A stretch of DNA of 64,000 nt from Quercus robur (Eukaryota; Streptophyta; Magnoliopsida; Fagales; Fagaceae), in contig NC_065535.1 in assembly GCF_932294415.1 (NCBI RefSeq), positions 67,043,862 to 67,107,861 on the forward strand, written 5' to 3'. Positions 11,921 through 43,158 of the stretch are shown here, one piece after another; position 1 is the first letter of the stretch, and each line of letters begins with the position of its first letter. The position numbers and the translations under genes are program-made. The notes beneath the pieces are model-generated. The model made no database searches, was not told where the DNA came from, and worked only from the letters and a program-made list of their open reading frames with translations.

Positions 11921-12391
11921 GGGAAAGAAAAGAAGCATTTTAGCTATCTTGCCATCAAGTCCAAAGACCATGGGTATTTATATGGTTGTAAATATTGAAT
12001 GGTTGTTGTGGGGCCCAATAATTTGTGGCCCTGGCCCATTTATTCATTGGGGCCCAAGGCCCGAGCCGAGGAAGGTTATGGCCCAAGATCGGTAATACAA
12101 GTACAAAACAGTCTTGGGACACAGCCAAGGACGATTTAGTCCTCGGCATATTCGAGGTCTCACTGGAAGGAAGGGCAAAAACGGTATAGGAACAGTTTGG
12201 AAAAAAATCTAAAACATCTAGGTCAATAGAGAAGGATATGCTGGAAAGTATAACGACCAGGGAAAGCTGCCCTTACTGCCATTCAATACTCTGCATCTGA
12301 CAGAGCCATACTCTCCAGCTTTTACAACCACCCCCAACCACTCCGGATATGGGCTGATGGGACAAGTATCAATCTTGGAAAAGTCGATCCT

Positions 12392-12430
12392 ACACGTGGA
12401 CGGAGGATAAGGAATGCATGCTAGTATAAA
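12392..12430 (+). promoter_or_regulatory. LTR promoter: G-box and TATA box
   Basis: ACACGTGG (a G-box/ABRE-type core) at 12392-12399 is followed about 25-30 bp later by a GTATAAAAGG TATA box. The same pair is found in the LTRs of B (about 21945 and 21967) and C (about 38864 and 38896), which implies a conserved U3 promoter. Confidence 0.55.
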
Positions 12431-12935
12431 AGGAAAAGTAAGCAATCCAGAGCAGGGGTTGGGAAAAATGGCCAAAAACCAGAGTCTCCCAGCCCGCCTC
12501 CAGGAGAAAGACTCCTAGGGCGATCACGATTTAACTATGTACGGACACCACGAAAAACCTACCGTCTGGCGACTAAGGCCTAGCCTTTCAAACCCACGCT
12601 CTATAAATGATATTGTTTGAGCATTTTTATGTGCGAACCCAACACTACTATGGGTCGTCACAAATCGTGTCCTTACAATTGGTGCTGTCTGTGGGGAAGG
12701 CTTGTGTTTTGGCACAGGTAATGGGTTGAGACAATCCCTCACATCATTTCCAACAGCCGGATGTAGTGTTCTAGCGTAAAGTTCCACTAGGGGCTATGTT
12801 TCTTTACTAGGGGCTGCGCTTCGTAGCGTCAACAGCACGAATGGTTCTAGGGGCTTGGCCGGGGAGCTAATTCCCCTCAAACCAAGGTCCCACGCCATAG
12901 TCGAGGGGGTAATTCCCCCAACTACTTATCAAAAT

Positions 12936-13275
12936 CGGTCCTCGGACTCAAACCTATGGGGAAACCAACTACTTAGCTACTTATCAAAATCAAGTTTTGG
13001 ACAGAACCAACTACTTAGCTACTTATCAAAATCAAGTTTTGGACAGAACCAAGGTATTGCATGGTTCTTGGACTCAAACCTATGGGGAAACCAACTACTT
13101 AGCTACTTATCAAAATCAAATTTTGAACAGAACCAAGGTATTGCATGGTCCTCGGACTCAAACCTATGGGGAAACCAACTACTTAGCTACTTATCAAAAT
13201 CAAGTTTTGGACAGAACCAAGGTATTGCATGGTCCTCGGACTCAAACCTATGGGGAAACCAACTTCTTAGCTACT
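12936..13275 (+). repeat. 84-bp minisatellite of LTR element A
   Basis: The core 'ttttggacagaaccaagg' followed by a ggactcaaacctatgggg block recurs at an exact 84-bp spacing (the ggactc motif at 13070, 13154 and 13238), with an irregular first unit 126 bp earlier (12944). The linker between cores is acttagctacttatcaaaat. Because 84 is a multiple of 3, the repeat keeps one frame open, which explains the 160-codon open frame here; I see no protein family in it. Confidence 0.9.
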
Positions 13276-13489
13276 TAATAAAAATTCTAAAGTTGCTCAA
13301 TCCTCTGATCAAAAACCAGAAGAGGTTAAAGCTATGAAAGTTATTAGGAAGATGGTGAAACACCTTATTACTCAGCAACCTGTAGGGGCTGTTCATTTTT
13401 GGGTTATATGTCTTCGGATGATTACCTCATACACCGCACCGAGCATTCAGCTGTCATCTCGGCTATTTTGGGGTAAGTGTTGCTTTCTC

Positions 13490-13850
13490 AGGTCAGCATT
13501 ATTGTGCCAAACAACTCTATTAAGTTCATAATAATATCTTTTCCTTAGCAAGGGTTTTGACCCTAAGTGTCATTTGTTCAAATTGGTATTATTGTGCCGA
13601 ACAACACTCGTAAGTTCATGATAACGTCTTTTTTCTTGGTAAGGGATTTCGGCCCTAAGTATTGTGTTCTCAGGTCGGCGGTATTGTGCCAGGTAGCCCT
13701 AATAAGCTCATCATAATATCTTTTCCTTTTCTTCTTAATAAGGATTTCAGCCCTAAGTATCATTTGTTCGATTCAGTATTATTAATTCGGATAGTTTCAG
13801 TAAGCACAGAGCATGATCTTTTTATTAACTGGGATTTCGGCCCTAGGCAT
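13490..13850 (+). repeat. second tandem repeat of LTR element A (about 110-120 bp, about 3-4 units)
   Basis: Units share 'cagcattattgtgcc', 'taagttcataataatatctt' and 'gatttcggccctaagtatc'-like blocks with lengths that vary by several bases. One unit of the same sequence is present in element B (about 23403-23480) and a degenerate one in C (about 41110-41190), so the array expanded within A. Confidence 0.75.
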
Positions 13851-15678
13851 CGTTCAAAGTATGGAAATAAAAGAGAAGTCGCAAAGTAGCGTCTATTTAC
13901 GACATATCCATTCCAAAAAAGAAAAGAGATAGAACATACGAAGTAAAGCAATGATAATTTTTATTAATATAAAGGGGTATTACAGTGTACAAAGAAGGGC
14001 TTAAACAAGCCTATATAGAAAACGAATTACTAAAACAATAAAAAAAAAAAAAAACAAACGAACAGCCAGAAATCTTTTTTAAGCTTTGCTCCCAAGTCTT
14101 TCCAAACTCTGCTCCATTAGCATCCATATTGAGAGGAGGACCTTCCTTGGTGGGAGAGGAGAAGAAGAGGAAGAAGGAAAAGCACCAGGATGGATCTGGT
14201 GGTGGAAAGAAGAAGAAAGAGAGGCAAAAGGAGGCACCAGTGAAGGAAGAGAGGAAGAAGCAGGGATACTTTGTCCCTGCGTCAATCCTAACTCCTAACA
14301 CGCTGGTGCCATGTTAGCTATGCTCATAAGAGAGCGGCTGGTATTGGTAATGGGTGACCCCAGCTCAGTCGTGCCAAAAGTTTGACGTGACGAGCCCCTA
14401 CTTCGGATTTTGGCTGAAAGGAGGGTAAGAAAGATCTTGAGTCTCTGCCATCCCTGCCCTGACCGAGCCATTTTAAGCTTCATAAGAGCATGGTATTTCT
14501 GGGAAGGGTGTGGTTCCTTCATTACTTACTCCTATCTCGAACGTAACACAATTTAAGGTGTAACTAGCGGATAAAGTAAACTCTGGAGGAGGCTAAGTGT
14601 TTCAGATTTCAGAAGGATAAAAAGGGTCTCTGTACAAGAGAAATAACCTCTTGCTTTTCTTCTTATATGAAGGGCAAAACGGAAGGTATTTAATCCATCC
14701 AGATTTCCAAGAAAATCTGTAAACGAGAATATGCCCATTCCACTTCCCCACACCGTCAATAACCGTCGAATTTAAATGGTCTCGTAAAGGGAAATCATTA
14801 AAGGCGCGTTTTGGATAAGCAAAACGGCAGGAACGCATTGTGAATGAATTTAGAGGAATGTCTCGTAGCCTGATATGTTTCCTGGGTAGATGAAGAGACA
14901 CCAACATTAATGAAGGACCGAGTTAAACGAGCCGTAATAAAGGCTTGGCATTACCAAAACCCTCCTCTCCAACCAAGAGGTCGGACAATAGGATTTTGAG
15001 GGGCTATTGTGGGGCCCAATAATTTGTGGCCCTGGCCCATTTATTCATTAGGGCCCAAGGCCCGAGCCGAGGAAGGTTATGGCCTAGGATCGGTAATACA
15101 AGTACAAAACAGTCTTGGGACACAGCCGAGGACGATTCAGTCCTCGGCATATCCGAGGTCTCATTGGAAGGAAGGGCAAAAACGGTATAGGAACAGTTTG
15201 GAAAAAAATCTAAAACATCTAGGTCAATAGAGAAAGATACGCTGGAAAGTATAACAACCAGGAAAAGCTGCCCTTACTGCCATTCAATACTCTGCATCTG
15301 ACAGAGCCATACTCTCCAGCTTTTACAACCACCCCCAACCACTCCGGATATGGGTTAATGGGACAAGTATCAGTCTTGGAAAAGTCGATCCTACACGTGA
15401 ACGGAGGATAAGGAATGCATGCTAGTATAAAAGGAAAAGTAAGCAATCCAGAGCAGGGGCTGGGAAAAATGGCCAAAAACCAGAGCCTCCCAGCCCGCTT
15501 TCAGGAGAAAGACTCTTAAGGCGATCACGATTTAACTATGTACGGACACCATGAAAAACCCACCGTCTGGTGACTAAGGCCTAGCCTTTCAAACCCACGC
15601 TCTATAAATGATATTGTTTGGGCCTTTTTACGTGCGAACCCAACACTACCATGGGTCGTCACAAATCGTGTCCTTACA

Positions 15679-17529: not shown

Positions 17530-18954
17530 TTAACTAGGATTTATACAACTGCATATGTTTTTCGAATGCGATATTAGGTAATCAAGGAAGCTATCCAAGT
17601 ATCGATCTTGACTTGTCCTGTCTCCAAACAAGGCCTTCATCTCCTTAGCCTTGTCCCTGTAAATCTTGCCCTCTTCCTCTACTATCACCATCCTTAAAGA
17701 CTTAGCCACCGAGTCCCTAGTGAATGATCCATCATGCTCATTCCTCGGTATTAAATACCCAATATGTTTTTCTTCCAAAACCTTAGCATTAATCCCCTGG
17801 TCTGCATAGAAGGTCAATAATATGAGAGCTCTCTCAAACTGAAGTGCTTCCACCACAGAGCTCCACCCAGAGTGTGTGAAAAATCCACCAATGGAGTCAT
17901 GAGCTAAAATCTTGAGCTGAGGTACCCAACTCGTACACACCAATCCTTGTCCTTTGGTTCGCTCCTCGAACCCTTCTGGCAACTCGATCAACTCAGTATC
18001 AGCTTGGCCACGTCGAGTTCTTAGTACCAAGAAGAAGGGTAAGTTGGATTGTTCTAACCCAAGAGCAATCTCAGTGAGTTCCTCTTGACTAGGCTTCGCT
18101 TCACTCCCAAATGCTACGTACACTACAGAACCTTTGGCTTGCTTATCCAACCAGTCTTTCATCCACAACCAAGTCACAGTTTCATCACCATTGTCGTACA
18201 CAACAGTGGGAAGTTGACCAACGGGAAGAACAGGTTTCCGGTGAAGATCCTCAAGAACTCGTAGCCATTCTGGTTCGAATTCCACGCTGCTTCTCACGGC
18301 CACTATGTCACAGCCATCGAGCACTTCCACGGCTCGAAAAATCTCTGAGACGTCGGACTTGTCGGTGCTTATGCCGCCTTGAAAGACTTTCATGACCTCG
18401 AAGAAGCGCATTGTCACCGTGGTTGGGAATGGGACCCAGGTGGGCGGCACAGTAAAATCCTCGGGGTTCTTACGCTCACCAAGATGGGCTTTGGAGCCGA
18501 TGAAACTGAGAAAAGCCGCAGTGACTGTGCTGAAGAAGGCGTTTGAGATGCCGAGTTTACGGGCTATACTTGGTAACCAATAAGGAGCATAGTCGTAAAG
18601 AAGCCAGTCTGGGTGTGAGTCTTGTAGGAACCGAGCCATGGAGTCTTGGAGAGCATCATAAGCCTTCTTGAGGTACGGGAGTTTGTTGTTTGGGACATCA
18701 ATGGTGGCCTCGGCATCTTCTGGGAGGTTTTCCACGTGGGGTAATGGAAGCCTCACCAAGTCTATGTGGGAAGCCAAACTGGGAGTGAGTTTTGGGAGGC
18801 GATCAATGTTTCGAGGGGTGGATATGAAGGAGATATGGTGACCCTTTTGAGCCATAAGCTTGGCGAGCTCGAGGTAGGGGATCATATGGCCAAAAGCTAG
18901 CCATGGGAACATGGCTATGTGGAGCTTCTTCTTCTTGTTGGGCATGGAATCCAT
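17530..18954 (-). CDS. family 1 UDP-glycosyltransferase, UGT91 type
   Basis: This single-exon gene encodes 474 residues, typical for plant UGTs. I choose the Met at 18954 (MDSMPNKKKK) because family members begin close to the LHIAMFPWLAFGH block; an in-frame ATG lies 13 codons upstream. The enzyme should transfer a sugar from a UDP donor to a small cytosolic acceptor. The likely catalytic His is at about residue 23 (FGHM). The C-terminal donor-binding PSPG box runs from WVPQLKILAHDSIGGFFTHS to FYADQ, ending in the Gln usual for glucose- or rhamnose-using enzymes. The context FTRDSVAKSLRMVIVEEEGK is typical of UGT91 members, often annotated as UDP-rhamnose:rhamnosyltransferases acting on flavonoid glycosides. 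Acceptor and donor cannot be read from sequence. An oddity is Glu in ALQFERALILL, where relatives usually have Gly. No neighbouring UGT copies are seen. Confidence 0.95.
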   Translation of the reverse strand: MDSMPNKKKKLHIAMFPWLAFGHMIPYLELAKLMAQKGHHISFISTPRNIDRLPKLTPSLASHIDLVRLPLPHVENLPEDAEATIDVPNNKLPYLKKAYDALQDSMARFLQDSHPDWLLYDYAPYWLPSIARKLGISNAFFSTVTAAFLSFIGSKAHLGERKNPEDFTVPPTWVPFPTTVTMRFFEVMKVFQGGISTDKSDVSEIFRAVEVLDGCDIVAVRSSVEFEPEWLRVLEDLHRKPVLPVGQLPTVVYDNGDETVTWLWMKDWLDKQAKGSVVYVAFGSEAKPSQEELTEIALGLEQSNLPFFLVLRTRRGQADTELIELPEGFEERTKGQGLVCTSWVPQLKILAHDSIGGFFTHSGWSSVVEALQFERALILLTFYADQGINAKVLEEKHIGYLIPRNEHDGSFTRDSVAKSLRMVIVEEEGKIYRDKAKEMKALFGDRTSQDRYLDSFLDYLISHSKNICSCINPS

Positions 18955-19504: not shown

Positions 19505-20208
19505 TGTAAGGACTCGATTCGTAATGACTCCAAGATAATATTGGGCTCGTACGTAAAGAGGGCCCAAACAATATCATTTGTAGAGCGTGGATTTGGAAGG
19601 CTAAGTCCTGGGTCACATGACCGTGGTTTGTCGTGGTGTTCATACAGAGTTAAATCGTGTTCGTTCGAGGAGCCTTTCTCCTGGAGGCGAACTGGGAGAC
19701 TCTGGTTCTTGGCCATTTTTCCCAGCCCCGTTCTTGGTGCATTAACCTTCACATTATATAGCCCTTCTTGGTTGATCTTAGCCCTCCACTTGTTGATCAG
19801 GCAGGTGCCTACTTCAGTACCCGTCCCATCAGCTGTCCCTCCTTACTTTCTGTTAGTTGCGATGATCGAAGTCACCCTGTCCAAGCGTCTTTTCTCATTA
19901 ACATGGTTAGGACATTGGCGGATGCATTTAATGCGGAGGGGATGTATTCACCCTGTACCAGTTTCGCACCGTACCCCCACGTGGGTCCCATTCTACTCGC
20001 ATCTTTTTCAGGGGGCTTTTTGGGGGCAGCCTTCAACGAGACGTTGCTCTTCCCTTTGAAGTCTTGGAGTGCCGAGGATAGGGTCATCCTCGGCTGTTCC
20101 CCCCGACACTTCGGCCTTTCCTCATTCGTCCTCGGCAAATACCCTCCTCGGCACGGGCCCCGGGCCCTAATAGAGCGTGGGCCAGATCATAAGTTCCCTG
20201 GCCCCACA
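19505..20208 (-). mobile_element. solo LTR, inverted orientation
   Basis: Read on the minus strand this 704-bp LTR begins TGTGGGGCCAG and ends GAGTCCTTACA. It is flanked by the perfect 5-bp duplication ATAAA (19500-19504 and 20209-20213). It is related to the LTRs of A and B by its termini and its gccgagga-rich body. Open frames inside it are not genes. Confidence 0.87.
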
Positions 20209-21609: not shown

Positions 21610-24600
21610 TGTGGGGTCAGAGAATTTATGACCTCAGCCCATTTTATATTAAGGCCCAAGGCCTAGGCCGAGGAGAGATATTGCCGAGGACGCACCATGG
21701 GAGTCCAGAACGGCCTAGGGATGTGGCTGAGGATGACCTTGTGCTCGGCATCCCATAGTGCCCCTAAAAGGAAGGGCGAGCACAATGCAAGAGCAGCCCA
21801 AGTAAAAGGTTGCCAATACTGCAATAAAGCACTCTGCACCTGACAGGACCATACTCTTCAGCTTTTACAGCCACCCCCAACCACTTTAGGTATGGGCTGA
21901 CAGGATAAGTCCTAAACCCTAGAAAATTGAGCTTACACGTGGACGCTGGAGAGAGGGTAAATGCTAATATAAAAAGGAGAAAGAAGCAATACAGAAAGGG
22001 GGGACAACCCGTCTCCCAAACCATGGAGTCCTAGAAAAAGGAGGATAATAAGAGCACAAAGCTCCATACGCTCCTCGGACGAGGTTCAGTGACCGGAACC
22101 ACCAAAACCGTTGTCCGGTAACCAAGGCCTACTCTTTCAAACCCACGCTCTACAAATTATATTGTTTGGGCCTTTAACGTGCGAACCCAACACCATCTTG
22201 GGGTCGTTACAAATTGAGTCCTTACAATTGGCGACGTCTGTGGGAAAGGCTTGTGCGTTGGCCCAGGCGGTGGAACGAGAAGTCCTTCCATCACTTCTCG
22301 CAGCCCGTTGTTGTGTCTTAACATCAAGTTCCACTAGGGGCTGCGCTTCGAAACGTTAGTAACGCAGACTGTTCCAGGGGCTTTCAACGTTGGATCAATG
22401 TCCCACACCTTGACCGAGGGGCTAATCCCCCAAGGGGCTAACCTCGTCATACTTAAAAAAGCTAAGTTTTGGACAGAACCAAGGTATTGTATGGTCCTCG
22501 GACTTAAGCCTATGGGGAAACCAACTACTTAAAAAAGTTAAGTTTTGGACATAACCAAGGTATTGTATGGTCCTCGGACTCAAGCCTATGGAGAAACCAA
22601 TTACTTAAAAAAGCTAAGTTTTGGACAGAACTAGGGCATTGCATGGTCCTCGGACTCAAGCCTATGAGGAAACCAACTACTTAAAAAAGCTAAGTTTTGG
22701 ACAGAACCAAGGTATTGTATGGTCCTAGGACTCAAGCCTATGGGGAAACCAACTACTTAAAAAAGCTAAGTTTTGGACAGAACGAAGGTATTGTATGGTC
22801 CTCGGACTCAAACCTATGGGGAAACCAACTACTTAAAAAAGCTAAGTTTTGGACAGAACCAAGGTATTGTATTGTCCTTGGATTCAAACCTATGGGGAAA
22901 CCAACTACTTAAAAAGCTAAGTTTTTGACAGAACAAGGTATTGCATGGTCCTTGGACTCAAACCTATGGGGAAACCAACTACTTAAAAAACTAAGCTTTG
23001 GACAGAACCAAGGTATTGCATGGTCCTCGGACTCAAACCTATGGGGAAACCAACCACTTAAGAAGAATTCTAGGTTGCTCAGACCTACAGGAAGGTTATT
23101 TATTAAAAGTCGGATTAAGTCCTAGACGGAATGAAGATCCCAACCTGTCATCAGATCCTCAGTTCTAAGGGAACTGATGCAAACGAGCGTTTAAGTTCGG
23201 TACGGTCGTACTTCAGTCCTAGGACCGGATGCCAAAAATGGCTAAGGCTATGAAGGTTAGTAGGAAGGTGGCAAAGCACCCTAGTACTGGGCGACCCGCA
23301 TGGGCAGTTCATTTTGGGTTACCCATCCTCGGATGATTGCCTCCTACACGGTATCGAGCATTCAGCCGTCATCTAGGTTAATCTTAGGTATGTAACCTTT
23401 TTCAGGTCGGCATTATTGTGCCGAATAGTTTCAATACTCTTAGAATAATTTCTTTTCCTTAACAAGGGTTTCGACCCTAAGTATTGATTAGAATAATATA
23501 TATATATATATATATATAATCATATAATAGCACATCCATTCACAACATAGCTATTGCAAAAAAGAAAGAATACGTAGAATAAAATGATGTCAACTTTTGT
23601 TAATATAAAAAAGTAGTACAACGTACAATGAGGGGCTTAAACAAGCCTATATGGGAAGCTAATTACAAAAGCAAAAATGAAAAATACAAGGAAACGACAA
23701 GTCTTTCTAAACTCTGCTCCAGTAACGATTACGTATGAGAGGGTGACCCCCTTTGATGGAAGAGGAGAAGAAGAGGAAGAAGTAAAAGCACCAGGATGGA
23801 TCCGGTGATGGGAAAGAAGAAGAAGGGGAGGTAAAAGGAGGCACCAGTGAAGGAAGAGAAGAGGAAGCAGGGATACTTAATCCCTGCGTCAGCCTTGACT
23901 CCTATCACGCAAGTGCCATATTAGCTATGCTCGAAAGAGAGCGGATGGTACTGATGATGAGTAACCCCAGCTCCGTTGCACCAAAAATTTGATGTGATTA
24001 ACATCTGCTTCGAATAATCGCTTCGAATTTTGACTGAAGGAAGATGAAAAATATCTTGAGTCTCTGCCTACCCTGCCCTGACTGAGCCATCTTAAGCTTC
24101 GGAGTGACACGGTGCTTCTGGAGAGGATGTGGTTCCTTCACCCCCGCTTTTACCTCAGACATATCACACTCTAAGGTTTGGTTGTGCTGATAAGGAAAAC
24201 TTTGAGCGCAGCTGGAGGTTTAAAACTTTAGAAAGATTAAAGGGTCTCTATGTAAAGGAAGTAACCTCTTACCTTGCTTCTTATATGGAAGGCAAGTTTG
24301 GTGGCATTTAATCCATATAGATTTCCAAGAAGAACTACAAACGAGATAGTATCCACTCAACTCCCCCACGCCGTCTATAACCGTCAGATTTGAGTGGCCT
24401 CGTAAAGGGAATTTATTAAAGACACGCCTCGTACACTGAAACGGCAGGAGCGCATCGTGAGTAAATCTAAAAGAATGTCTCGTAACCCGGCGTATTTCCT
24501 AGGCAGATGAAGAGACATCGACATTAATGAGGGGCAAAGCTAGACAAACTGTAATAAAGGCTTTGCATTACCAAAACCCTCCTCTCCAACCAAGAGGTCG

Positions 24601-25241
24601 GACAGCAGGATTTTGAGGGGCTATTGTGGGGTCAGAGAATTTATGACCCCGGCCCATTTTATATTAAGGCCCAAGGCCTGGGTCGAGGAGAGATATTGCC
24701 GAGGATGCACCATGGGAGTCTAGAACGGCCTAAGGATGTGGCCGAGGACGACCTTGTACTCGGCATCCCATAGTGCCCCTAAAAGGAAGGGCGAGCACAG
24801 TGCAGGAGCAGCCCAAGTAAAAGGCTGCCAATACTGCAATAAAGCACTCTGCACCTAACAGGACCATACTCTTCAGCTTTTACAGCCGCCCCCAACCACT
24901 CTAGGTATGGGCTGACAGGACAAGTCCTAAACCCTAGAAAATTGAGCTTACACGTGGACGCTGGAGAGAAGGTAAACGCTAATATAAAAAGGAGAAAGAG
25001 GCAATACAGAAAGGGGGGACAACCCGTCTCCCAAACCATGGAGTCCTAGAAAAAGGAGGATAATAAGAGCACAAAGCTCCATACGCTCCTCGGACGAGGT
25101 TCAGTGACCGGAACCACCCAAACCGCTGTCCGGTGACCAAGGCCTAGCCTTTCAAACCCACGCTCTACAAATTATATTGTTTGGGCCTCTAACGTGTGAA
25201 CCCAACACCATCTTGGGGTTGTTACGAATTGAGTCCTTACA
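21610..25241 (+). mobile_element. LTR retrotransposon B, non-autonomous, structurally complete fossil
   Basis: The element is 3632 bp with two 617-bp LTRs (21610-22226, 24625-25241) that start TGTGGGGTCAG and end GAGTCCTTACA, flanked by ATATA (21605-21609, 25242-25246). The 5' LTR is followed by ATTGGCGACGTCTGTGGGAA, a primer-binding-like segment; GATTTTGAGGGGCTAT precedes the 3' LTR. The interior parallels element A in order: 76-bp minisatellite, 'gtattgtgcc' block, purine-rich block (about 23745-23875), then the 'ttagctatgctc' region. No gag/pol domain is visible. The two LTRs differ by a few percent by eye. The 3' LTR is closer to the two extra LTRs downstream than to its own 5' LTR. Confidence 0.9.
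22451..23060 (+). repeat. 76-bp minisatellite of LTR element B (about 8 units)
   Basis: The same core as in A and C (ttttggacagaaccaaggta ... ggactcaagcctatgggg) recurs at 76-bp spacing (ggact at 22500, 22576 and 22652), with the shorter linker acttaaaaaagctaag. One or two units deviate by a base or so. Confidence 0.92.
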
Positions 25242-25522
25242 ATATATATAGTCATAGATGAGTTTCATTCTCCCTCACCTTTTATTTTTTAATTTTAGTT
25301 TTTTTGAATATACACATGAATTTACTTTTTATTATTATTGGTTTTTTTATGGTTTATTTATATTAGACTCTTCATCTTTTGCACAACATTAATTCACTTA
25401 AAATATTAGTAAAAATTAAAAAAAAAAAATTAGATACAACACAAGGTGTAAATGTAGACAACAATTAAAGTCCAATTTAAAATTTCATTGAATTTTTACT
25501 TAGATTTGGCTTTAATTATATA
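25242..25522. repeat. host-derived spacer S1 in the LTR array
   Basis: About 281 bp of AT-rich DNA lies between the 3' LTR of B and the next LTR. It is nearly identical to 26140-26422 and more distantly similar to about 21275-21609, which lies before element B. It contains the landmarks 'catagatgagtttcattc', 'ttttttatggtttatttata' and 'ttgcacaacattaa'. Confidence 0.85.
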
Positions 25523-26139
25523 TGTGGGGTCAGAGAATTTATGACCCCGGCCCATTTTATATTAAGGCCCAAGGCCTGGGCCGAGGAGAGATATTGCCGA
25601 GGACGCACCATGGGAGTCCAAAACAGCCTAAGGATGTGGCCGAGGACGACCTTGTGCTCGGCATCCCATAGTGCCCCTAAAAGGAAGGGTGAGCACAATG
25701 CAGGAGCAGCCCAAGTAAAAGGCTGCCAATACTGCAATAAAACACTCTGCACCTAACAGGACCATACTCTTCAGCTTTTACAGCCACTCCTAACCACTCT
25801 AGGTATGGGCTGACAGGACAAGTCCTAAACCCTAGAAAATTGAGCTTACACGTGGACGCTGGAGAGAAGGTAAACGCTAATATAAAAAGGAGAAAGAGGC
25901 AATACAGAAAGGGGGGACAACCCGTCTCCCAAACCATGGAGTCCTAGAAAAAGGAGGATAATAAGAGCACAAAGCTCCATACGCTCCTCGGACGAGGTTC
26001 AGTGACCGGAACCACCCAAACCGCTGTCCGGTGACCAAGGCCTAGCCTTTCAAACCCACGCTCTACAAATTATATTGTTTGGGCCTCTAACGTGCGAACC
26101 CAACACCATCTTGGGGTTGTTACGAATTGAGTCCTTACA
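25523..26139 (+). mobile_element. additional LTR of family B (array unit 1)
   Basis: A 617-bp LTR nearly identical to 24625-25241, with the same junctions (aattatata before it, atatata after it). It has no interior of its own. Together with the preceding spacer it forms a roughly 900-bp tandem unit. Confidence 0.92.
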
Positions 26140-26422
26140 ATATATATAGTCATAGATGAGTTTTATTCTCCCTCACCTTTTATTTTTTAATTTTAGTTTT
26201 TTTGAATATACACATGAATTTACTTTTTATTATTATTGGTTTTTTTATGGTTTATTTATATTAGACTCTTCATCTTTTGCACAACATTAATTCACTTAAA
26301 ATATTAGTAAAAATTAAAAAAAAAAAAAAATAGATACAACACAAGGTGTAAATGTAGACAACAATTAAAGTCCAATTTAAAATTTCATTGAATTTTTACT
26401 TAGATTTGGCTTTAATTATATA
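26140..26422. repeat. host-derived spacer S2 in the LTR array
   Basis: Almost the same sequence as 25242-25522, differing by a base change near the start and a longer poly-A run. It is the second spacer of the LTR/host tandem array. Confidence 0.85.
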
Positions 26423-27039
26423 TGTGGGGTCAGAGAATTTATGACCCCGGCCCATTTTATATTAAGGCCCAAGGCTTGGGCCGAGGAGAGATATTGCCGA
26501 GGACGCACCATGGGAGTCCAAAATGGCCTAAGGATGTGGCCGAGGATGACCTTGTGCTCGGCATCCCATAGTGCCCCTAAAAGGAAGGGCGAGCACAGTG
26601 GAGGAGCATCCCAAGTAAAAGGCTGCCAATATTGCAATAAAGCACTCTGCACCTGACCGGACCATACTCTTCAGCTTTTACAGCCACCCCCAACCACTCT
26701 AGGTATGGGCTGACAGGACAAGTCCTAAACCCTAGAAAATTGAGCTTACACGTGGACACTGGAGAGAGGGTAAACGCTAATATAAAAAGGAGAAAGAGGC
26801 AATACAGAAAGGGGGGACAACCCGTCTCCCAAACCATGGAGTCCTAGAAAAAGGAGGATAATAAGAGCACAAAGCTCCATATGCTCCTTGGACGAGATTC
26901 GGTGACCGGAACCACCCAAACCGCTGTCCAGTGATCAAGGCCTAGCCTTTCAAACTCATGCTCTACAAATTATATTGTTTGGGCCTCTAACGTGCGAACC
27001 CAACACCATCTTGAGGTCGTTACAAATTGAATCCTTACA
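26423..27039 (+). mobile_element. additional LTR of family B (array unit 2)
   Basis: The third 617-bp LTR after the interior of element B, again starting TGTGGGGTCAG and ending ATCCTTACA. It is followed by atatata and then by unique DNA (caccgataaattgc), which marks the end of the array. Confidence 0.92.
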
Positions 27040-29288
27040 ATATATATACACCGATAAATTGCTCGTGCATTACACTAGAATTTTGCAAACTTCTAGAAAT
27101 ATTAGCATATATATAAACTTCTTGAAATAATTTTTAACCCGAAGATAAGTTAAGATGTTTTTAATGTTCTAAACAGTGGAGGGGAACTGACTTTCTTTGG
27201 GCGTCATGCCTCTCTGGTCTTCCTCATGAAATACTTTTGCAAACTGTTTTTATGTGGCTATTTTTTTCTTCCTTGTGAAGATTACCCTGTACTTTCTTTG
27301 ATCTTCCTTTTGGTTCTATCCTTGCTTCGATGACTCCATCCTCTCTTAGGAATTGAGATCAAATGCAATACCTTAACTCACTTTTCTCTTACAAATTTTT
27401 TCTATACTTACTTTTTATTATTATTTCATTTTAATATATTTAATTTAATAGTTAAGATTGATTTTTTTTTTCTTTTTTCAATATCAGCCATTGATATTAC
27501 ACTTAATCTCAATCACTCTCTCAACTAAACCCCTGGTCACTCGTCTTTATTACATCCTTCACCATTAATTCCCCTCTGCCATGACAGAATCTTTTGTGGA
27601 TGCCATTACTTCTCAAGTAGCTAGGCTCATTTGGCTAAAGAGTATAGTTAATCTCTATGAGGTCTCATATGTTGATACTATATTTTGTCCGATTCTAAAT
27701 TTTAATAGAAGTTTTAGCTTAAAAATGAATAATTTCATAGTTTTAATAATTTTTGTTGTTGTTGATTTTCATCAATTTCTATATGGTCAACTAATATTAG
27801 TGGACTTTTAAAATCAACCATATGATTGAATTAATTTTGGTGCTATATTTAACACCATGAAATTTTTTGTAATTTTCTTGCTCATGGGTGAAGACTAGGT
27901 TTAAATTAAATAAGGTATTGTTGATTAAAAGAATCTACTTGATTTGCATTTTAATTGTGAAAAAATATGTAATTTTCTATGGAACACATGCTAAAATTTT
28001 AGTGTGATTTTCTTGAAAAATTGCTACTAAATATATCATTTGGGTCTCTTTTATTGAATATGTCATTAAGATTTGAGTATCAAATTGATTTAGGAATTTA
28101 ATTAATTTTTATAAATTTTGTGTCATGTTTTTATGGAGTTCATTTACTTTGTTAAATTTGATTTTTTTATTTTTTATTTTTATCAGGACATACATGTGAT
28201 TTATCATTTATTCAAAAATCCAGTTAATTTCTTTTGATTAATGAGCATGCCAAGTTTTGACCAGAGATATTAACAGTTGACTTAAAGTCTATACAATTCC
28301 CTAAGTGCACTGCAGTCCAAGTTTTAATCCATTGCACAAGTAAATTATGGTATTGGTTCTGATTGCTAGAATGTTCGGGTGACATATCTCATCCATTCTT
28401 ATCTAGTGAGACAGGACACCTATCCTTATCCACCATCTTTAAAATCCCTAAAGCCACAGGAAACCCCATATAAAAGCTCTCACTTTCATTCCAATTAGGA
28501 ATAATCGATGGCCGGCTCCAAGGATTCCACATTCCCATGGTTTGGGCTTTTTACCACTTCTATTTTGGTTTTCATTCTAAACCTCTACCCAAGAGAAAAA
28601 ATCTTGTGGGACTCGCAGATTAATGAGACATAGTTCTCATGCCATACTTTTTACCAACATCTAAGTCTCCAACACCCAAAAAAAACTTCCCTGCCTAGCC
28701 CGAAAAACTGTCATACCTCCCTCCAAAACCCCCAAAAACAGAACCCAACAGAGCCTGAGGACCAAGAAAAATCCCTCATTTTTCATCTACCAGAAACCTT
28801 CAACAACCATTCTCAACAACCAGCTCCATCCCAACAAGAAGACCATCTACCCAACACCAACAAAGAGCAGACAACAACTTGAAGCAAGGCAGAAGCTAAG
28901 CAAAGAGAAACGATGATAGAACAGAGCAGAGACGACTTCTAAAACATTTTCTCACTTTCTTTTACTTCTTTTCTATTTTTGGTTTGGAATCTAACTTAAA
29001 AACTTGTTCCTTTTTCAGCTGGTAGATTGTTACACACCCAATTGACGCAATTGAGTTTGTTGGTTGCTTCGAGTGAACCGAGGCCTCTTTATTGATAAAT
29101 AAACTACTTCAAGGGAGTCTAGACCTCTAAAGTAAATATTCACTAAATAATCCTTTATTAATTAATATCAACCCATATAAATAGATGACTTTATAAAATA
29201 AAGCTAACATTTAAATCCTAAAGAAATCTAATCTTTATCTACAACAAGTAGATAAGATTTATTCAAATATTAAACTAACAATTTATCC
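27040..29288. other. intergenic DNA, no gene seen
   Basis: AT-rich DNA without supported coding regions. A segment around 28490-28950 has a less AT-rich, gene-like composition but no long open frame. A copy of a roughly 100-bp direct repeat lies at 29025-29130 (listed separately). Confidence 0.55.
29025..29130 (+). repeat. direct repeat, copy 1
   Basis: About 100 bp with the blocks 'aattgagtttgttggttg', 'cttcgag' and 'gagtctagacctc' that return at 30142-30250 at roughly 85 percent identity. The solo LTR at 29289-30050 lies between the two copies. Confidence 0.75.
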
Positions 29289-30050
29289 TGTGGGGCTAGA
29301 GAACTTACGACCCGGTCCACTTTTCACTAAAGCCCAGGGCCTGTGCCGAGGAGGGTAGTTGTCGAGGACGAGTAAGGAAATACCAAATAGCCTAGAGACA
29401 CAACCGAGGATGACCCTGTCCTCGACATCCTAAGACTTCAAAGGGAAAAGCGACATGTCGTCAAAGGCAACCTCCAAAAGGTCCCCAGAAGAAGAGGCGA
29501 GTAGAATAGGACCCATATGGAGTTACGGAGTGGAGGTGGTTCAAGGTAAATGCGTCTCCTCCGTATTGAATGCGCCCACAAACGTCCTGACCATATTAAT
29601 GAGAAAAGACGCCTGAACAGTATGGCTTCGATTATTGCAACTAACAAAAAGTAAGGGGAGGCGGTTGATGGGACAGGTGTTTGAATAGGCACCTGCTTGA
29701 TCAACAGGTGGAGGGTCAGGATCAACCGAGATGGGCTATATAAGGTGAAGACTTATGTGCCAAAAAGGGGGGCTCCCAGACCATGGAGTCCTAAAAAAGG
29801 GAGAATAATAAGGACATAAAGCTCCTTGGACGAGATCTAATGACCGGAGCCACTCATGACGTACCGGAATAGATTATTATCAAACACGTCAGGTTCATCC
29901 TTGTGCAAATCGCTATGGAAACCCTGATTAACCATCGTCCGGTGACCAAGGCCTAGCCTTTCAAGTCCACGCTCTACAAATTATATTGTTTGGGCCCTTA
30001 ACGTACGAACCCAATATCACTTTGGGGTCGTTACGAATTGAGTTCTTACA
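29289..30050 (+). mobile_element. solo LTR
   Basis: A 762-bp LTR beginning TGTGGGGCTAG and ending GAGTTCTTACA, related to the B-type LTRs in its 3' third (cacgctctacaaattatatt). The flanks TATCC and TATTC match in 4 of 5 positions, so the target duplication has begun to decay. Confidence 0.8.
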
Positions 30051-37574: not shown

Positions 37575-37630
37575 AAAGAGAAAATGTAATCTAATGGTAG
37601 ATTTTTTAAAGTTCTCATCTAATGAGAAGA

Positions 37631-37793: not shown

Positions 37794-37819
37794 TCATCTA
37801 ATAAGAAGATATTGTGTAA

Positions 37820-37990
37820 TTTTTATTTTTATTTTTTGGAGAGAATTTCAACCTATGACGTCCGCTCTTGATGATAGCTCTTTATCATCAAACCAAGACA
37901 CCAATCAGTTTTTGATGTAGGCAAGGATTAAATCTCAGATCTCATATACAACCATAAAATTTTTTACTAGTTAAGTTTACTGGAACCCAC
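37820..37990 (-). mobile_element. tRNA-derived SINE, copy 2
   Basis: Same family and orientation as the previous copy: head GTGGGTTCCAGTAAACTTAA, tail shown by the T-rich start. It is flanked by the 13-bp duplication agatattgtgtaa (37807-37819, 37991-38003). Its left duplication overlaps the right duplication of copy 1 by 3 bp. Confidence 0.87.
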
Positions 37991-38230
37991 AGATATTGTG
38001 TAAGTTTGTAGCCAAATGTTGTCTTAAATATATAATATATAATAATGATAATTACTAATATATACTTATTAGGATTGTGTTTTTATATAGAACTATTTCT
38101 TTTTATGGCATTTATTCTATCATTTAAAGAAAATATGATGTGTCAAGATTCTAATTGAGGGTTTAAATATATAATTAATTTTAATTAAATTAAAACATAT
38201 ATTCTTCTTTAAAAAAAAAATTAAAACATA

Positions 38231-38490
38231 CTCCCTTTGTCTCAATTTGTTTGTCATTTATTCCATTTTGGAATGTATACAAAATATTGTCCTGTTTCTA
38301 AAATTAAAAACTATTAATTTACTAATGTTCCTATCATACCCCATTTTATTTCCAAAAACTTTTTTGATAAATTTATTTTAGAGTAATTTTGGAAACTTAG
38401 ACATTTTTATACAGCAGACAAGACAATAAATGATATTTCATTAAAAAATTGGATTTTTAAAACTAGACAAACAAATTGGTACGAATGGAG
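38231..38490. mobile_element. decayed Stowaway/mariner-like MITE
   Basis: An older relative of the MITE at 35108-35368, about 260 bp in inverted orientation. It starts CTCCCTTTGTCTCAATTTGT and ends ACAAATTGGTACGAATGGAG, with TA on both sides. Confidence 0.85.
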
Positions 38491-39464
38491 TATATAGTAG
38501 AATATTGACATGTAAAATTATGAGAACTCAAAATCTTATGTGGTAAAATATTATAAATGTGGGGCTAGTGAATTCGCGGCCCAGGCCCATTCCGCATGGG
38601 GCCTAGGAACTAGGGCCCACGCCGAGGAGAGCCATTGCCGAGGACAACCTCCTGCTCGGCACCTCACGAAATGCCTAAGGAAGGGGGGAAAATGAGTTCA
38701 GGGGCAAGGTAAGGAAAAAAACAACCAACATCATAATATCAAGCCCTATATCTGACAAGTCCATACTCTAAACCATGCCCTGTAACTTTCCCAGCGACCC
38801 CAAACCATACTGGAGTATGGGTTGACAGGACAGGTCTGCACCCCGAAAAAAGGGTGAGACTTACACGTGAACTTGAAGGAAGAGAAGAAACACGAATATA
38901 AAAGGAGGAACTCACCAGAAGGAAAAGGGGGGGCTCTCTCTCTGGAAAAAGAGGAGGGAGGGAAGGAGACAAGGATCCTGGGACAGCTTCCGAGGACAAA
39001 AGTCCTACAACCCGTTCCAACGGAGGGCTTAGCTAGTCAAGCAAGGCCCGCCGGTACCAGAATTTCCATGGTCGCCACGATCAAATCGACCACCTGTGCC
39101 CAATGTCATGCCATTCGAGCCCACTCTCTACAAATCATATTGTTGGGGTCCATTGTATACGAGCCCAACGTCACTCTTGGGCCGTTAAATAAATCGTGAC
39201 CCTACAATTGGCGCTGTCTGTGGGGATGGCTTGTGCGTTGGCTCAGGCGGCGGTGGAGTTAAGCTTTTGTAGAGCAAGGGTCTATGAGGATGCCTTTATG
39301 ACCGGCGACACATTGCTGTTGTTCCAACATAAGTTCCCACTAGGGGCTACGCCTCACAGTGCCAATGGCATGGGCAAGTCTAGGGGCTTCAAACATCAAG
39401 CTAGCTTCCCCTGCCTTGTTCGAGGAGCTGACCTTCGGAAAATGAATAAATACAAGAAACAATA

Positions 39465-40815
39465 CAAGTTTTGGACAGAACCAAGGCCTTGCGTGGTCTT
39501 CGGACTCAAGCCTCTGGGGAAACCAACTACTTACAGAAAAAATACAAGTTTTGGACAGAACCAAGGCCTTGTATGGTCTTCGGACTCAAGCCTCTGGGGA
39601 AACCAACTACTTACAGAAAAAATGCGAGTTTTGGACAGAACCAAGGCCTTGCATGGTCTTCGGACTCAAGCCTCTGGGGAAACCAACTACTTACAGAAAA
39701 AATACAAGTTTTGGACAGAACCAAGGCCTTGCATGGTCTTCGGACTCAAGCCTCTGGGGAAACCAACTACTTACAAGAAACAATACAAGTTGTGGACAGA
39801 ATCAAGGCCTTGCATGGTCCTCGGACTCAAGCCTCTGGGGAAACCAACTACTTACAAGAAACAATACAAGTTTTGGACAGAACCAAGACCTTGCATGGTC
39901 TTCGGACTCAAGCCTCTGGGGAAACCAACTACTTACAGAAAAAATACGAGTTTTGGACAGAACCAAGGCCTTGCGTGGTCCTCGGACTCAAGCCTCTGGG
40001 GAAACCAACTACTTACAAAAAAAATACAAGTTTTGGACAGAACCAAGGCCTTGCATGGTCTTCGGACTCAAGCCTCTGGGGAAACCAACTACTTACAGAA
40101 AAAATGCGAGTTTTGGACAGAACCAAGGCCTTGCATGGTCTTCGGACTCAAGCCTCTGGGGAAACCAACTACTTACAAAAAAAATACAAGTTTTGGACAG
40201 AACCAAGGCCTTGCATGGTCTTCGGACTCAAGCCTCTGGGGAAACCAACTACTTACAGAAAAAATACAAGTTTTGGACAGAACCAAGGCCTTGCATGGTC
40301 TTCGGACTCAAGCCTCTGGGGAAACCAACTACTTACAGAAAAAATACGAGTTTTGGACAGAACCAAGGCCTTGCATGGTCTTCGGACTCAAGCCTCTGGG
40401 GAAACCAACTACTTACAGAAAAAATACAAGTTTTGGACAGAACCAAGGCCTTGCATGGTCTTCGGACTCAAGCCTCTGGGGAAACCAACTACTTACAGAA
40501 AAAATACGAGTTTTGGACAGAACCAAGGCCTTGCATGGTCTTCGGACTCAAGCCTCTGGGGAAACCAACTACTTACAGAAAAAATACGAGTTTTGGACAG
40601 AACCAAGGCCTTGTATGGTCCTCGGACTCAAGGCTCTGGGGAAACCAACTACTTACAGAAAAAATACGAGTTTTGGACAGAATCAAGGCCTTGTATGGTC
40701 CTCGAACTCAAGCCTCTGGAGAAACCAACTACTTACAGAAAAAATACGAGTTTTGGACAGAACTAAGGCCTTGCATGGTCCTCGGACTCAAGCCTATGGG
40801 GAAGCCAAGTACTTA
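39465..40815 (+). repeat. 80-bp minisatellite of LTR element C (about 17 units)
   Basis: The core ttttggacagaaccaaggcc ... ggactcaagcctctggggaa recurs every 80 bp (for example the ccaaggcctt motif at 39481, 39561, 39641 and 39721) with the linker acttacagaaaaaatacaag. Units are 90 percent or more identical. Since 80 leaves remainder 2 on division by 3, all three frames are used in turn, and the unit has no stop in any plus-strand frame. This produces three overlapping long open frames (558, 431 and 421 codons) that are a by-product of the repeat, not evidence for a protein. Confidence 0.96.
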
Positions 40816-41340
40816 AAGGAAAAATCACATTACATGGACCTTAGAATCTATCCGAGGAGAACTCTCCATTAATGATTGGGTTAATTCCTAAACTGTATGG
40901 ATTCTCAAGTCTGCTCTCGGATCCTCAGCACCAAAGGGATTGATGCAATATAGAGCAATATGTTGCCAAAAACACAATCGGAGTCCCCTACTGCTCGGTC
41001 ACCCCCTCGGATGAATTATATAGAGTTTGTCGTTCTCGGACGGTATTCTCGCACTTATTATAGAATATTCAGCTGTTATCTTGGTTAGTTTCCTAAGTTT
41101 AACTTACTATGAATTGTCGTTATTATGCCTGGTAATGTCGGTAAATTAGAATTAGTTGAATTATGTTTCGAGGTTTCCCGCTCTAAGTATCATTGAAGAA
41201 AAACACACACGGAGCACACCCATTCACATAGTAGTATTGCAAAAAAGAAAAGTATTCAAAACAAACAAATAAATTTCCCTTTTTATTAAAACAAAGAAAT
41301 AGTACAGCGTACAATGAAAAGCTGGAATCAGCTTATATTA

Positions 41341-41503
41341 AAGCTAACTACATAATCGAAAAGAAAGATACAAGAGAATAAGATAAAGCTGAGGAGGTAG
41401 TACAGAAGAGAGGTTGGTTGCTAAAGCTAACTACATAATCGAAAAGAAAGATACAAGAGAATAAGATAAAGCCGAGGAGGTAGTACAGAGGAGAGGTTGG
41501 CTG
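41341..41503 (+). repeat. 81-bp tandem duplication inside element C
   Basis: The segment from 'aagctaactacataatcgaa' to 'gaggttggttgct' occurs twice in a row with only a few differences. Confidence 0.9.
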
Positions 41504-43158
41504 CTGCTTCAAGACTTTGTTCTTCCTCAATACTTTTACATGCCCATAACTCAGGCAGCAAAAGAACCCAGCGTGGGGCCTGCACCGTTGAAGAAAAGGT
41601 GCAGAGAGAGCCCAACTTCAGGCTAGCGCAGCTGAAGAAAAGGTGCAGGGAACCCAACTTGAGGCCCACACCGTTGAAGAGAAGGTGCCGGGAACCGGAA
41701 GTTGAAGAGCCTACACAAAAATTTGCCTGTGACAAGGCAGATGGCGATGATGGCGGAAAACTTTACTTTTGATGCACCAAGAATCTGGTGCGACCAGTAC
41801 CTGCTTCGGATTTTGACTAAAAGAAGGAGAAACACCGTTTCCCCCTTTGTCCAGACGGAGTATTTTCTTGAATCTGTGCCTCCCATGCCCAGACCACACT
41901 ACCTTGAGTCTCGGAAGGACCCGGCGCCTCTGTGGCGGAGGGAGTTCCTTCACCCCAACCCGCGCCTCAAACATATTATACTAAGGGAGGATAACACCAG
42001 ATATGGAAGTTGTGATTATGACTGAAGGATCGTAGTTTGGGAGGAAATTGAAGGATTTGGGTGTAAGTGGAGCAACCTCCTACCCTATTTATTTAAAAGA
42101 CAAGGAGGTGGCATTTAATTCACGCAGAGTCCCAAGGAACACTACAGAAAAAATGGTTCCGGTTCAATTCCCAACGCCACCAGCAACCATAAGATTAAAA
42201 GATTCTCGTGAAGGCGCATCTCGAACACTGGAACGTCAAAGGGTACCGCGTAACCAAAGACTGAAGGAATGCCTCTTAATCCGGTGCATCTCCTATGCAA
42301 ATGGAGAAAGCCCAAACATCAAAAGTACATAATCTGAGTGAGTTGTGATGTGGGCCCAGCATTATTAAAATCCTCATCCCCAACTAAAAGTCGGGCAGTA
42401 GGATTTTGAGGGGCTATTGTGGGGCTAGTGAATTCGCGGCCCAGGCCCATTCCGCATGGGGTCCAGGGGCTAGGGCCCACGCCGAGGAGAGCCATTGCCG
42501 AGGACAACCTCCTGCTCGGCACCTCACGAAATGCCTGAGGAAGGGGGGAAAATGAGTTCAGGGGCAAGGTAAGGGAAAAAACAACCAACATCATAATATC
42601 AAGCCCTATATCTGACAAGTCCATACTCTAAACTATGCCCTGTAACTTTCCCAGCGACCCCAAACCATACTGGAGTATGGGTTGACAGGACAGGTCTGCA
42701 CCCCGAAAAAAGGGTGAGACTTACACGTGAACTTGAAGGAAGAGAAGAAACACGGATATAAAAGGAGGAACTCACCAGAAGGAAAAGGGGGGGCTCTCTC
42801 TCTGGAAAAAGAGGAGGGAGGGAAGGACACAAGGATCCTGGGACAGCTTCCGAGGACAAAAGTCCTACAACCCGTTCCAACGGAGGGCTTAGCTAGTCAA
42901 GCAAGGCCCGCCAGTACCAGAATTTCCATGGTCGCCACGATCAAATCGACCACCTGTGCCCAATGTCATACCATTCGAGCCCACTCTCTATAAATCATAT
43001 TGTTGGAGTCTATTGTATACGAGCCCAACGTCACTCTTGGGCCGTTAAATAAATCGTGACCCTACAATAAAGTTAACCAAAAGTCAAACTCCTTTGGTTT
43101 TATATACACTAGACACAGCCCCTCAGAATGCGTGGGATAGTTACAATTTTGTGTGTGT

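Follow-up and report, generated by a model that had tools for sequence, protein, structure and literature searches.

LTR retrotransposons of the LARD and TRIM types have LTRs, a primer-binding site (PBS) and a polypurine tract (PPT), lack gag and pol, and are presumed to be mobilised in trans. The Quercus robur elements analysed here (A, B, C and their relatives) resemble them in having LTRs, PBS and PPT without gag and pol, but their parent lineage is identified and their interior keeps a constrained tandem array. In the Drosophila gypsy element, conserved cores alternate with variable, AT-rich spacers in an array of Su(Hw) insulator sites close to the 5′ end. By description the core/spacer plan is alike, whereas the core in our elements is of greater length and there is some support for a hairpin in it.

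Retand elements, as described in the part of PMC11963269 drawn on here, have a long region between pol and the 3′ LTR, with an antisense TRP28 ORF and tandem arrays that often lie next to pol. The array units are 8–100 bp long and differ in copy number between copies, their sequences are highly variable and family-specific, and their origin and function are given as unknown; 10 of 63 clusters are without some coding domain. Whereas these arrays are called family-specific, in our material a single core is common to families with and without gag-pol that have hardly alignable LTRs, and whereas the defective clusters tabled in that part of PMC11963269 miss some domains, elements A, B and C miss all of gag-pol. 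In Ogre elements short arrays of the 3′ UTR, located downstream of gag-pol, are kept in pol-less non-autonomous elements (Macas 2009 as cited in PMC7004042). The part of PMC7004042 used here describes the Ogre arrays as hypervariable and as seeds of satellites, in contrast to the constrained core found here in array regions that were LTR-flanked in all 13 sampled cases.

Structure and coding content of elements A, B and C

The window (the whole 64-kb stretch of DNA that was analysed) contains three LTR retrotransposons, A, B and C, each with 5-bp TSDs, a tRNA-Lys(UUU)-type PBS, a tandem array and a PPT (Table 1). The matching layout that the first-pass annotation had described was confirmed: each element has an LTR pair with TSDs, a primer-binding-like site and the PPT-like sequence GGATTTTGAGGGGCTAT. 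The periods proposed there were reproduced by TRF: 84 bp × 3.3 in A (13005-13285), 76 bp × 8.1 in B and 80 bp × 17.1 in C, with only 3 full units plus partial ones in A. The 18-mer of the core, searched with up to 3 mismatches, had 28 matches in the window, all on the + strand (0.09 expected).

Table 1. Parts of elements A, B and C (positions in the 64-kb window)
Feature	Position	Strand	Remarks
Element A 5′ LTR	12007..12677	+	643/671 identical to 15008-15678; TSD GTTGT on both sides
Element A PBS TGGTGCTGTCTGTGGG	12680..12695	+	2 differences from the exact tRNA-Lys(UUU) complement
Element A core-linker array, 84-bp period	12937..13285	+	partial units, then 3 full units
Element A PPT GGATTTTGAGGGGCTAT	14991..15007	+	
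Element A 3′ LTR	15008..15678	+	pair of 12007-12677
Element B 5′ LTR	21610..22226	+	588/617 identical to 24625-25241; TSD ATATA
Element B PBS TGGCGACGTCTGTGGG	22229..22244	+	1 difference from the exact tRNA-Lys(UUU) complement
Element B core-linker array, 76-bp period, 8 units	22450..23061	+	TRF
Element B PPT GGATTTTGAGGGGCTAT	24608..24624	+	
Element B 3′ LTR	24625..25241	+	pair of 21610-22226
Element C 5′ LTR	38558..39206	+	635/649 identical to 42418-43066; TSD ATAAA
Element C PBS TGGCGCTGTCTGTGGG	39209..39224	+	1 difference from the exact tRNA-Lys(UUU) complement
Element C core-linker array, 80-bp period, 17 units	39455..40825	+	TRF
Element C PPT GGATTTTGAGGGGCTAT	42401..42417	+	
Element C 3′ LTR	42418..43066	+	pair of 38558-39206

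Six-frame Pfam scans of the three interiors revealed no gag, pol or TRP28, in agreement with the absence of gag and pol noted earlier. The sole family above its cut-off was bpX1, in element C alone (37.6-65.5 bits, over short repeat stretches), and was taken as a repeat artefact; matches to RHS, propeller, RWP-RK and Carm_PH in the interiors all stayed under the Pfam cut-offs. No known RNA family was found at gathering threshold within the window. A repeat protein encoded by the array is extremely improbable. All three + frames of element C are open over 1.3-1.7 kb and long frames are present in several other elements, but the 76- and 80-bp periods change the reading frame at every unit, and no frame in element B or in two further elements (L013, L016) reaches 130 aa. 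A protein-coding repeat was rejected on the ground that reading frames are not maintained.

Gag-pol-bearing partners in the same genome

In the 786-Mb genome to which the window belongs the PBS junction occurs 5,179 times and the PPT-LTR junction 4,347 times (up to 2 mismatches), with no occurrence of either reversed control. The exact PBS is complementary to the 3′ end of loci called tRNA-Lys(UUU) in 4 of the 6 fetched. Fifteen exact PBS matches in C1:0-2.9 Mb led to arrays found earlier (7), to arrays with a variant core (3) or to gag-like sequence (5). According to the first-pass annotation, gag-pol copies with coding sequence at the site of the array, combined with a core drifting at the neutral rate, would speak against a role of the repeat as nucleic acid. 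Gag-like coding sequence does fill the site in 5 of the 8 copies read past the PBS; the core, however, is conserved beyond neutral yardsticks (see below).

The search for an autonomous partner suggested there yielded candidates: two gag-pol copies, L052 and L053, have the PBS junction and the PPT in common with A, B and C, the PPT being identical in L053 and having two differences in L052. Pfam detected gag in L044, and RVT_1, RNase H, RVT_3 and integrase, in this order, in L053 and L052. The layout of the latter two is LTR, PBS, gag, RT/RNase H/archaeal-type RNase H/integrase, array, antisense TRP28-related and coiled-coil ORFs, PPT, LTR. An additional RNase H in pol is a mark of the Tat clade, and in Ogre and Retand it lies between RNase H and integrase (PMC6317226, in the part used here); RVT_3 lies between RT_RNaseH and integrase in both copies, while A, B and C have no pol. 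The TRP28 matches of L052 (17.7 bits) and of the non-autonomous L017 (20.1 bits) are below the 26.2 cut-off, and the antisense ORFs of L053 itself have no Pfam match to TRP28; an antisense ORF of L017 is 52% identical over 168/175 aa to an ORF in L053. The extra RNase H places L052 and L053 in the Tat clade, and the TRP28-related antisense ORFs make them probable Retand-type elements. The 12 TRP28 loci with the highest scores (L025-L036) showed neither the PPT nor the PBS of the family of A, B and C within 1.5 kb. L037/L028 represents another Retand-like family, which has the same PBS motif but an unrelated LTR, and in which no core array was observed.

A homologous 79-81-bp array follows pol in 3 of 5 gag-bearing copies (L052, L053 and, by matching offset, L055). 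L056 has one diverged unit, which beat shuffles for just 3 of 6 queries, and no unit was found in the examined slice of L054; a tandem array is therefore not strictly required. Among the PBS matches listed (88 of 100, those below 22.1 Mb; first match per array), at least 14 of 26 autonomous-type arrays are preceded on their own strand by an exact PBS at a distance of 5,064-5,863 bp, and none of the 26 has one within 9 kb downstream. The array is thus not special to non-autonomous elements, a point that the first-pass annotation had missed.

Because the PBS junction leads into gag elsewhere and a homologous array follows pol in those three copies, A, B and C classify, from sequence comparison, as gag-pol-less derivatives that kept the array. 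They are LARD-like in lacking gag and pol and in having their termini in common with a gag-pol-bearing partner. Most derivatives are also without the antisense ORFs. Inside the LTRs, derivatives and gag-pol copies have only short stretches in common. The derivative leaders match gag-pol copies solely in 18-30 nt at the PBS, so simple deletion of gag-pol stays a candidate route only; a search for the origin of the ~240-bp leader did not find it. In viral and prokaryote contigs the exact 18-mer occurred in 3 viral contigs, about the estimated chance level, and longer patterns did not occur.

Core, linker and period

LTR-type direct repeats flank 13/13 sampled array regions and are complete in 10. 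The elements fit the LTR-retrotransposon pattern of a TG..CA LTR pair, TSD, PBS and PPT: equal 5-bp TSDs border 13/13 of those in which the LTR pair is complete, the boundaries having been shifted one base by eye in L013, L020 and L022. In the sampled derivatives the array starts ~240-280 bp 3′ of the 5′ LTR. Young copies were seen, for example L019, whose LTR pair is 756/758 identical.

The array unit consists of a conserved core of ~57-65 nt and a free linker of 1-19 nt; the linkers are A-rich and variable in length. Over 78 pairs of 13 elements (of 16; L012, L015 and L024, in which no complete LTR pair was measured, were left out) the mean pairwise difference was 0.099 for the core, 0.407 for the LTR and 0.485 for the linker, which bore out the earlier statement that the core is kept while the linker changes. 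The core differed less than the LTR in 78/78 pairs, and did so too (0.108) after removal of the 18 bases used for finding the elements. In the single gag-pol pair compared (L052 and L053) the core differs by 7.8%, pol fourfold sites by 25% (74/293) and the LTR by 22%.

The view of the periods as 'species-like' lineage markers proved overstated, because 76- and 80-bp periods alternate within L017, and the periods are unlike (68-72 bp and 81 bp) in L022 and L019, which are closest to each other in their LTRs. The period is not locked to lineage.

Could the array have arisen without function, by slippage and strand transfer during reverse transcription, the cores being similar through exchange of units among co-packaged families? 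We consider this unlikely. Such an origin is cited as a hypothesis for Tat arrays in the part of PMC7004042 used here, the first arrays of the sampled elements range from 3 to 31 units, and the linkers keep some residual similarity: their difference reached the shuffled value in only 19/78 pairs, and the close families L019, L021 and L023 have common linkers (difference 0.14-0.22). Exchange should, however, move the adjoining linker with the core, yet once L022, with its linkers of 1-5 nt, is set aside (66 pairs), the linker difference (0.428) is close to that of the LTR (0.412), against 0.098 for the core. Nor does this origin suit a core that is recognisable across gag-pol families with little LTR similarity and whose difference in the L052/L053 pair is a third of that at fourfold sites.

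Predicted hairpin and possible role of the core

A hairpin is predicted in which the two ends of the core form the outer helix, and the unit variants give it moderate, not conclusive support. In the unit alignments (in A3, at most 3 distinct units per locus, one partial L074 unit left out) one stem position shows three Watson-Crick pair types, and 90.1% and 96.1% of the stem cells are paired in the two unit sets. The two-sided changes were matched by at most 3/500 shuffles, a test inflated by the relatedness of the units. When the partners were slid by +1 column in the autonomous set, the covariation score was equal (0.081) and 4 pairs and 20 cells had two-sided changes, yet just 51% of the cells were paired. 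The 'further pair types' score was not above shuffles in either unit set. In folding, which had been suggested earlier, single units of A, B and C did no better than shuffles (z -0.09, 0.06 and -0.71); for five distinct autonomous units, folded in the sense orientation, z was -2.18, -2.48, -0.04, -2.25 and -1.62.

Since frames are not kept and the core is more conserved than LTRs and pol fourfold sites, the repeat is more likely to act as nucleic acid, as had been proposed, than as protein. Wobble changes separated neither the two strands nor RNA from DNA: G.U and A.C changes were found in 9 and 9 pairs, 3 and 3 pairs and, for the window units, 9 and 4 pairs. This lack of a decisive strand preference leaves room for a core acting as a DNA site, in a protein-binding array (insulator, enhancer or terminator) with AT-rich spacers on the pattern of the Su(Hw) array of gypsy, although we regard such a site as rather unlikely. 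A conserved core with free, A-rich linkers of variable length fits it, and its place in L052 and L053, with pol on one side and the convergent antisense ORFs on the other, would suit a boundary or terminator. Two-sided changes that preserve pairing, however, are not expected of a plain binding site, and the array is still present in 12 of 14 derivatives without a detectable match to the antisense ORFs of L017, including A, B and C.

We lean towards the explanation that A, B and C derive from Retand-type (Tat, Ty3/gypsy) elements as non-autonomous forms copied in trans, with the core as a cis-acting RNA signal. Mobilisation would be effected by gag-pol elements with the same LTR ends, tRNA-Lys PBS and PPT, and the core in the transcript would be recognised by the Gag or RT of the partner, in packaging, dimerisation or otherwise. 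The core may have been kept and multiplied by raising the chance of the element to be copied, the linkers being spacers whose drift in length would give the different periods. The comparisons suggest that the repeat helps the element to copy itself; a packaging or dimerisation role is our best guess. It is possible, though doubtful, that the 'hypervariable' array between pol and the 3′ LTR of Retand/Tat elements is an array of a constrained hairpin, hidden from earlier comparisons by its variable linkers and serving as packaging or dimerisation signal, and that many protein-less parasites of this genome live by the signal that they carry and multiply.

Arrays after pol are already known in Retand; the new aspect is the constrained core common to partners and derivatives. 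A core held in common by gag-pol elements and derivatives, whose difference in the pair compared is about a third of that at fourfold sites, makes function testable, with the derivatives as minimal constructs supplied by nature. Should the core be a packaging signal, it would account for the spread of these parasites; should it be a DNA site, the elements would carry a boundary with them. On either reading, constrained and free parts can be told apart in a region that has been handled as hypervariable.

Elements A, B and C and their relatives in the genome

Elements A, B and C are LTR retrotransposons in which the two LTRs differ almost exclusively by transitions (table). Six-frame Pfam scans detected no gag, pol or TRP28 in them, in agreement with the first-pass annotation, which had seen neither gag nor pol. 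By pairwise alignment the three elements are about 74-80% identical in the LTRs, 62-68% in the leader and 76% (A/B), 52% (A/C) and 59% (B/C) in the region following the array. Alignment of the array units revealed an almost invariant core of about 65 bp, adjoined by linkers varying in sequence and length.

Elements A, B and C and other features of the window
Feature	Position	Strand	LTR pair identical	Transitions:other differences	Flanking duplication	Array period downstream of leader	Remarks
Element A	12007-15678		643/671	27:1	5 bp	84 bp	
Degenerate ~90-bp repeat	13498-13780						second repeat of element A, beyond the array (ATTATTGTGCC..AAGGGTTTCGACCCTAAG); one copy in B
UDP-glycosyltransferase-like sequence	17560-18950	-					putative; resembles the plant gene by eye
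Solo LTR, related family	19507-20208	-					TGTGGGG..TTACA; ends set by eye
Element B	21610-25241		588/617	27:2	5 bp	76 bp	
Tandem duplication (flank + solo LTR)	25242-27040						~900 bp, adjoins element B
Family-B LTR copy	25523-26139						ATATA borders; with copy of B's ~283-bp left flank
Family-B LTR copy	26423-27039						ATATA borders; with copy of B's ~283-bp left flank
Solo LTR, related family	29289-30050	+					TGTGGGG..TTACA
Element C	38558-43066		635/649	13:1	5 bp	80 bp	

The genome assembly that includes the window (785,749,727 bases, 42 contigs) contains 48,814 exact matches to a core 18-mer and none to the reversed control. Thirteen regions covering arrays were sampled among the matches listed, all in the first 2.9 Mb of one contig (C1). 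LTR-type flanking direct repeats were present in all 13, and complete in 10. Fourteen elements were measured (11 regions plus A, B and C); the 13 with a complete LTR pair have equal target duplications, LTR identities of 93.1-99.7% (756/758 in L019) and interiors of 2.0-5.6 kb. In 12 of the 13 the first full unit starts 239-282 bp past the 5′ LTR; in A, where partial units precede it, the distance is 358 bp. The primer-binding site (PBS) and the polypurine tract (PPT) recur across the measured elements with about 0-2 changes. Six of the 14 (L014, L015, L019, L021, L022, L023) carry a second array about 1.2-1.5 kb past the first, with the variant core CCTAGGACTTGC or CCTAAGGCTTGC, which looks nearer to the gag-pol form than the first-array core does. 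In L019 (19 copies vs 1) and L042 (8 vs 0) the core starts with TAATGG instead of TTTTGG, so the exact 18-mer search nearly misses both.

The first-pass annotation had called the shifts in array period species-like. Periods range from 66 to 84 bp in the sampled elements, and 76 and 80 bp alternate within L017, a non-autonomous element. In the LTR tree of 13 elements, L022 (68-72 bp) groups with L019 (81 bp) with 98% bootstrap support, and the clade around them otherwise consists of elements with the 81-bp period. Judged from this tree, period is no lineage label.

The primer and the gag-pol-bearing copies

The primer-binding sequence TGGCGCCGTCTGTGGG is complementary to CCA joined to the terminal bases of a sequence that the genome contains in 22 exact copies. 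ARAGORN identified tRNA-Lys(UUU) at four of the six loci fetched and no tRNA at the other two. Element A differs from the exact PBS in two bases, B and C in one each.

With up to two mismatches, the LTR-end/PBS junction had 5,179 and the PPT/LTR junction 4,347 matches in the genome; both controls gave 0. Seven of the 15 exact PBS matches on C1 up to 2.9 Mb lead to arrays with the exact core 18-mer. Reading about 1.5 kb downstream of the remaining eight revealed three variant-core arrays and five copies with gag-like sequence directly past the PBS, where the array is absent. Gag was identified by Pfam in L044 (5.2e-9); the other four copies were called by eye from shared motifs, with only short frames in L039 and L046. 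The LTR starts with TGTGGGG in four of the five gag-bearing copies, and no such LTR was found in L047, upstream of L039.

Two gag-bearing copies, L052 and L053, were traced through to the 3′ LTR. They have 5-bp target duplications, and their LTRs are identical at 667/682 (L048/L052) and 679/687 (L050/L053) positions. Pfam placed RVT_1 (7.5e-31), RNase H (5.3e-16), RVT_3 (1.4e-20) and integrase in this order in L053, and the same order was found in L052 as far as the integrase zinc-binding domain. Over TTTTGAGGGGCTAT the L053 PPT matches A, B and C exactly; the L052 PPT has two differences. These copies are candidates for the autonomous partner with the same LTR ends and PBS for which a search had been proposed. 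LTR interiors of gag-pol copies and gag-pol-less derivatives have only short stretches in common (e.g. L050/L017, 80% over 85 bp), and the match of derivative leaders to gag-pol copies is confined to 18-30 nt at their start, around the PBS.

Two published criteria bear on the lineage: Ogre/Retand elements of the Tat clade are recognised by an additional RNase H located between RNase H and integrase (PMC6317226), and Retand by a TRP28 ORF in antisense orientation (PMC11963269). TRP28 scores were 17.7 in L052 and 20.1 in L017, under the Pfam cut-off of 26.2, and Pfam gave no TRP28 match in L053. Over 168 of its 175 aa, the L017 antisense ORF shares 52% identity with L053; its identity with L052 is 51%. 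The coiled-coil ORF of L017 is 30-43% identical to L052, L053, L055 and L056. The genome has 4,149 TRP28 candidates; all 150 scored were above the cut-off. From these sequence features we use 'Retand-type' as a working label for the gag-pol copies. Another gag-pol-bearing Retand-like family (L037, L028) has an identical 16-base PBS motif and an unrelated LTR; no core array was seen in it.

Arrays behind pol and conservation of the core

Pol is followed directly by an array in both L052 (81 bp, 5.9 units) and L053 (79 bp, 3.8 units). The slice of a third gag-bearing copy, L055, contains one as well at a matching offset (81 bp, 5.4 units). Aligned with these three, real units taken from A, B, C and from three further derivative arrays scored 36-56, shuffled queries at most 23-30. 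A fourth copy (L056) has a single diverged unit, which beat 60 shuffles for three of six queries, and no units were found in L054, a slice of a fifth. A gag-pol-type 22-mer had 9,094 matches in the genome (up to two mismatches; control 0). When 26 gag-pol-type arrays on C1 were compared in position with the exact PBS matches, 14 proved to have a same-strand PBS 5,064-5,863 bp upstream; the 9 kb downstream contained none for any of the 26. The homologous arrays behind pol and this upstream PBS indicate that A, B and C hold near their 5′ end a repeat found behind pol elsewhere.

The earlier statement that the core is kept while the linker changes was borne out: in an all-against-all comparison of 13 elements (78 pairs), LTRs differed on average by 0.407, cores by 0.099, linkers by 0.485 and shuffled linkers by 0.540, the core value being lower than that of LTR and linker in all 78. 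When L022 with its 1-5-nt linkers was left out, the values for the remaining 66 pairs were 0.412, 0.098, 0.428 and 0.493. Linker difference reached or exceeded the shuffled value in 13 of these 66; linkers therefore keep some likeness, with about LTR-like divergence. LTR differences came from a multiple alignment and lie above pairwise values (A/B 0.345 vs 0.217), and the core difference is far under both. Since the elements had been found by the exact core 18-mer, positions 19-65 were retested alone (0.108, lower than LTR in 78/78). The unit finder allowed up to 15 substitutions, which caps the measurable core difference. Slippage with exchange of units is disfavoured as the source of core uniformity, because linkers diverge like LTRs but the adjoining cores do not.

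Two findings had been named that would together count against the original reading: coding sequence filling the array site in gag/pol copies, and a core no better kept than neutral sequence. The first was encountered, in the five gag-like copies among 15 junctions. The second was not: between L052 and L053, a single pair, cores differ by 7.8%, LTRs by 22% and pol fourfold sites by 25% (74/293), and the pol proteins are identical at 654/728 positions.

The predicted hairpin and the proposed signal

Gag-pol-type and derivative units were tested separately, as no one structure-consistent alignment fits both. For a 19-pair hairpin, 57 distinct gag-pol-type units gave 90.1% paired cells and two-sided changes at 4 pairs, involving 26 cells; of 500 shuffles, 3 reached this number of pairs, and none reached this number of cells or the covariation score. 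At one stem pair the counts were U-A 25, C-G 18, A-U 3, U.G 4 and unpaired 7. Two results from this set count against the hairpin: further pair types were not above shuffles, and a +1-column slide gave the same covariation score, with 4 pairs and 20 cells, at just 51% of cells paired. Pairing reaches 96.1% of cells in 21 derivative units, where 3 pairs (8 cells) have changed on both sides. By eye, the outer helix (UUGG/CCAA vs UUAA/UUA) has two pairs changed on both sides between the groups.

Predicted fold stability is modest: single units gave z of -0.09 (A), 0.06 (B) and -0.71 (C), and the whole B array, with 20 shuffles, -1.87. In the gag-pol type, five distinct sense units scored -2.18, -2.48, -0.04, -2.25 and -1.62, and two antisense units -1.97 and -1.78. 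On balance the predicted hairpin is likely.

Ogre arrays, also in pol-less elements, are already described (PMC7004042). Literature searches by titles and abstract openings, largely outside the subscription journals, listed no paper reporting that such arrays have a conserved core or form a hairpin, or describing the A/B/C family.

We propose that A, B, C and their relatives, being protein-less, would be copied in trans. The core may then be a cis-acting signal, because a constrained core with a free linker persists in such elements. The main rival is an array of DNA sites; G.U vs A.C changes (9 vs 9, 3 vs 3 and, in window units, 9 vs 4 pairs) do not discriminate between the strands. Recognition as RNA is favoured on two grounds: changes in the core are paired, and the derivatives retain it where coding parts have gone. 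On this reading the core would serve the family in RNA packaging or dimerisation.
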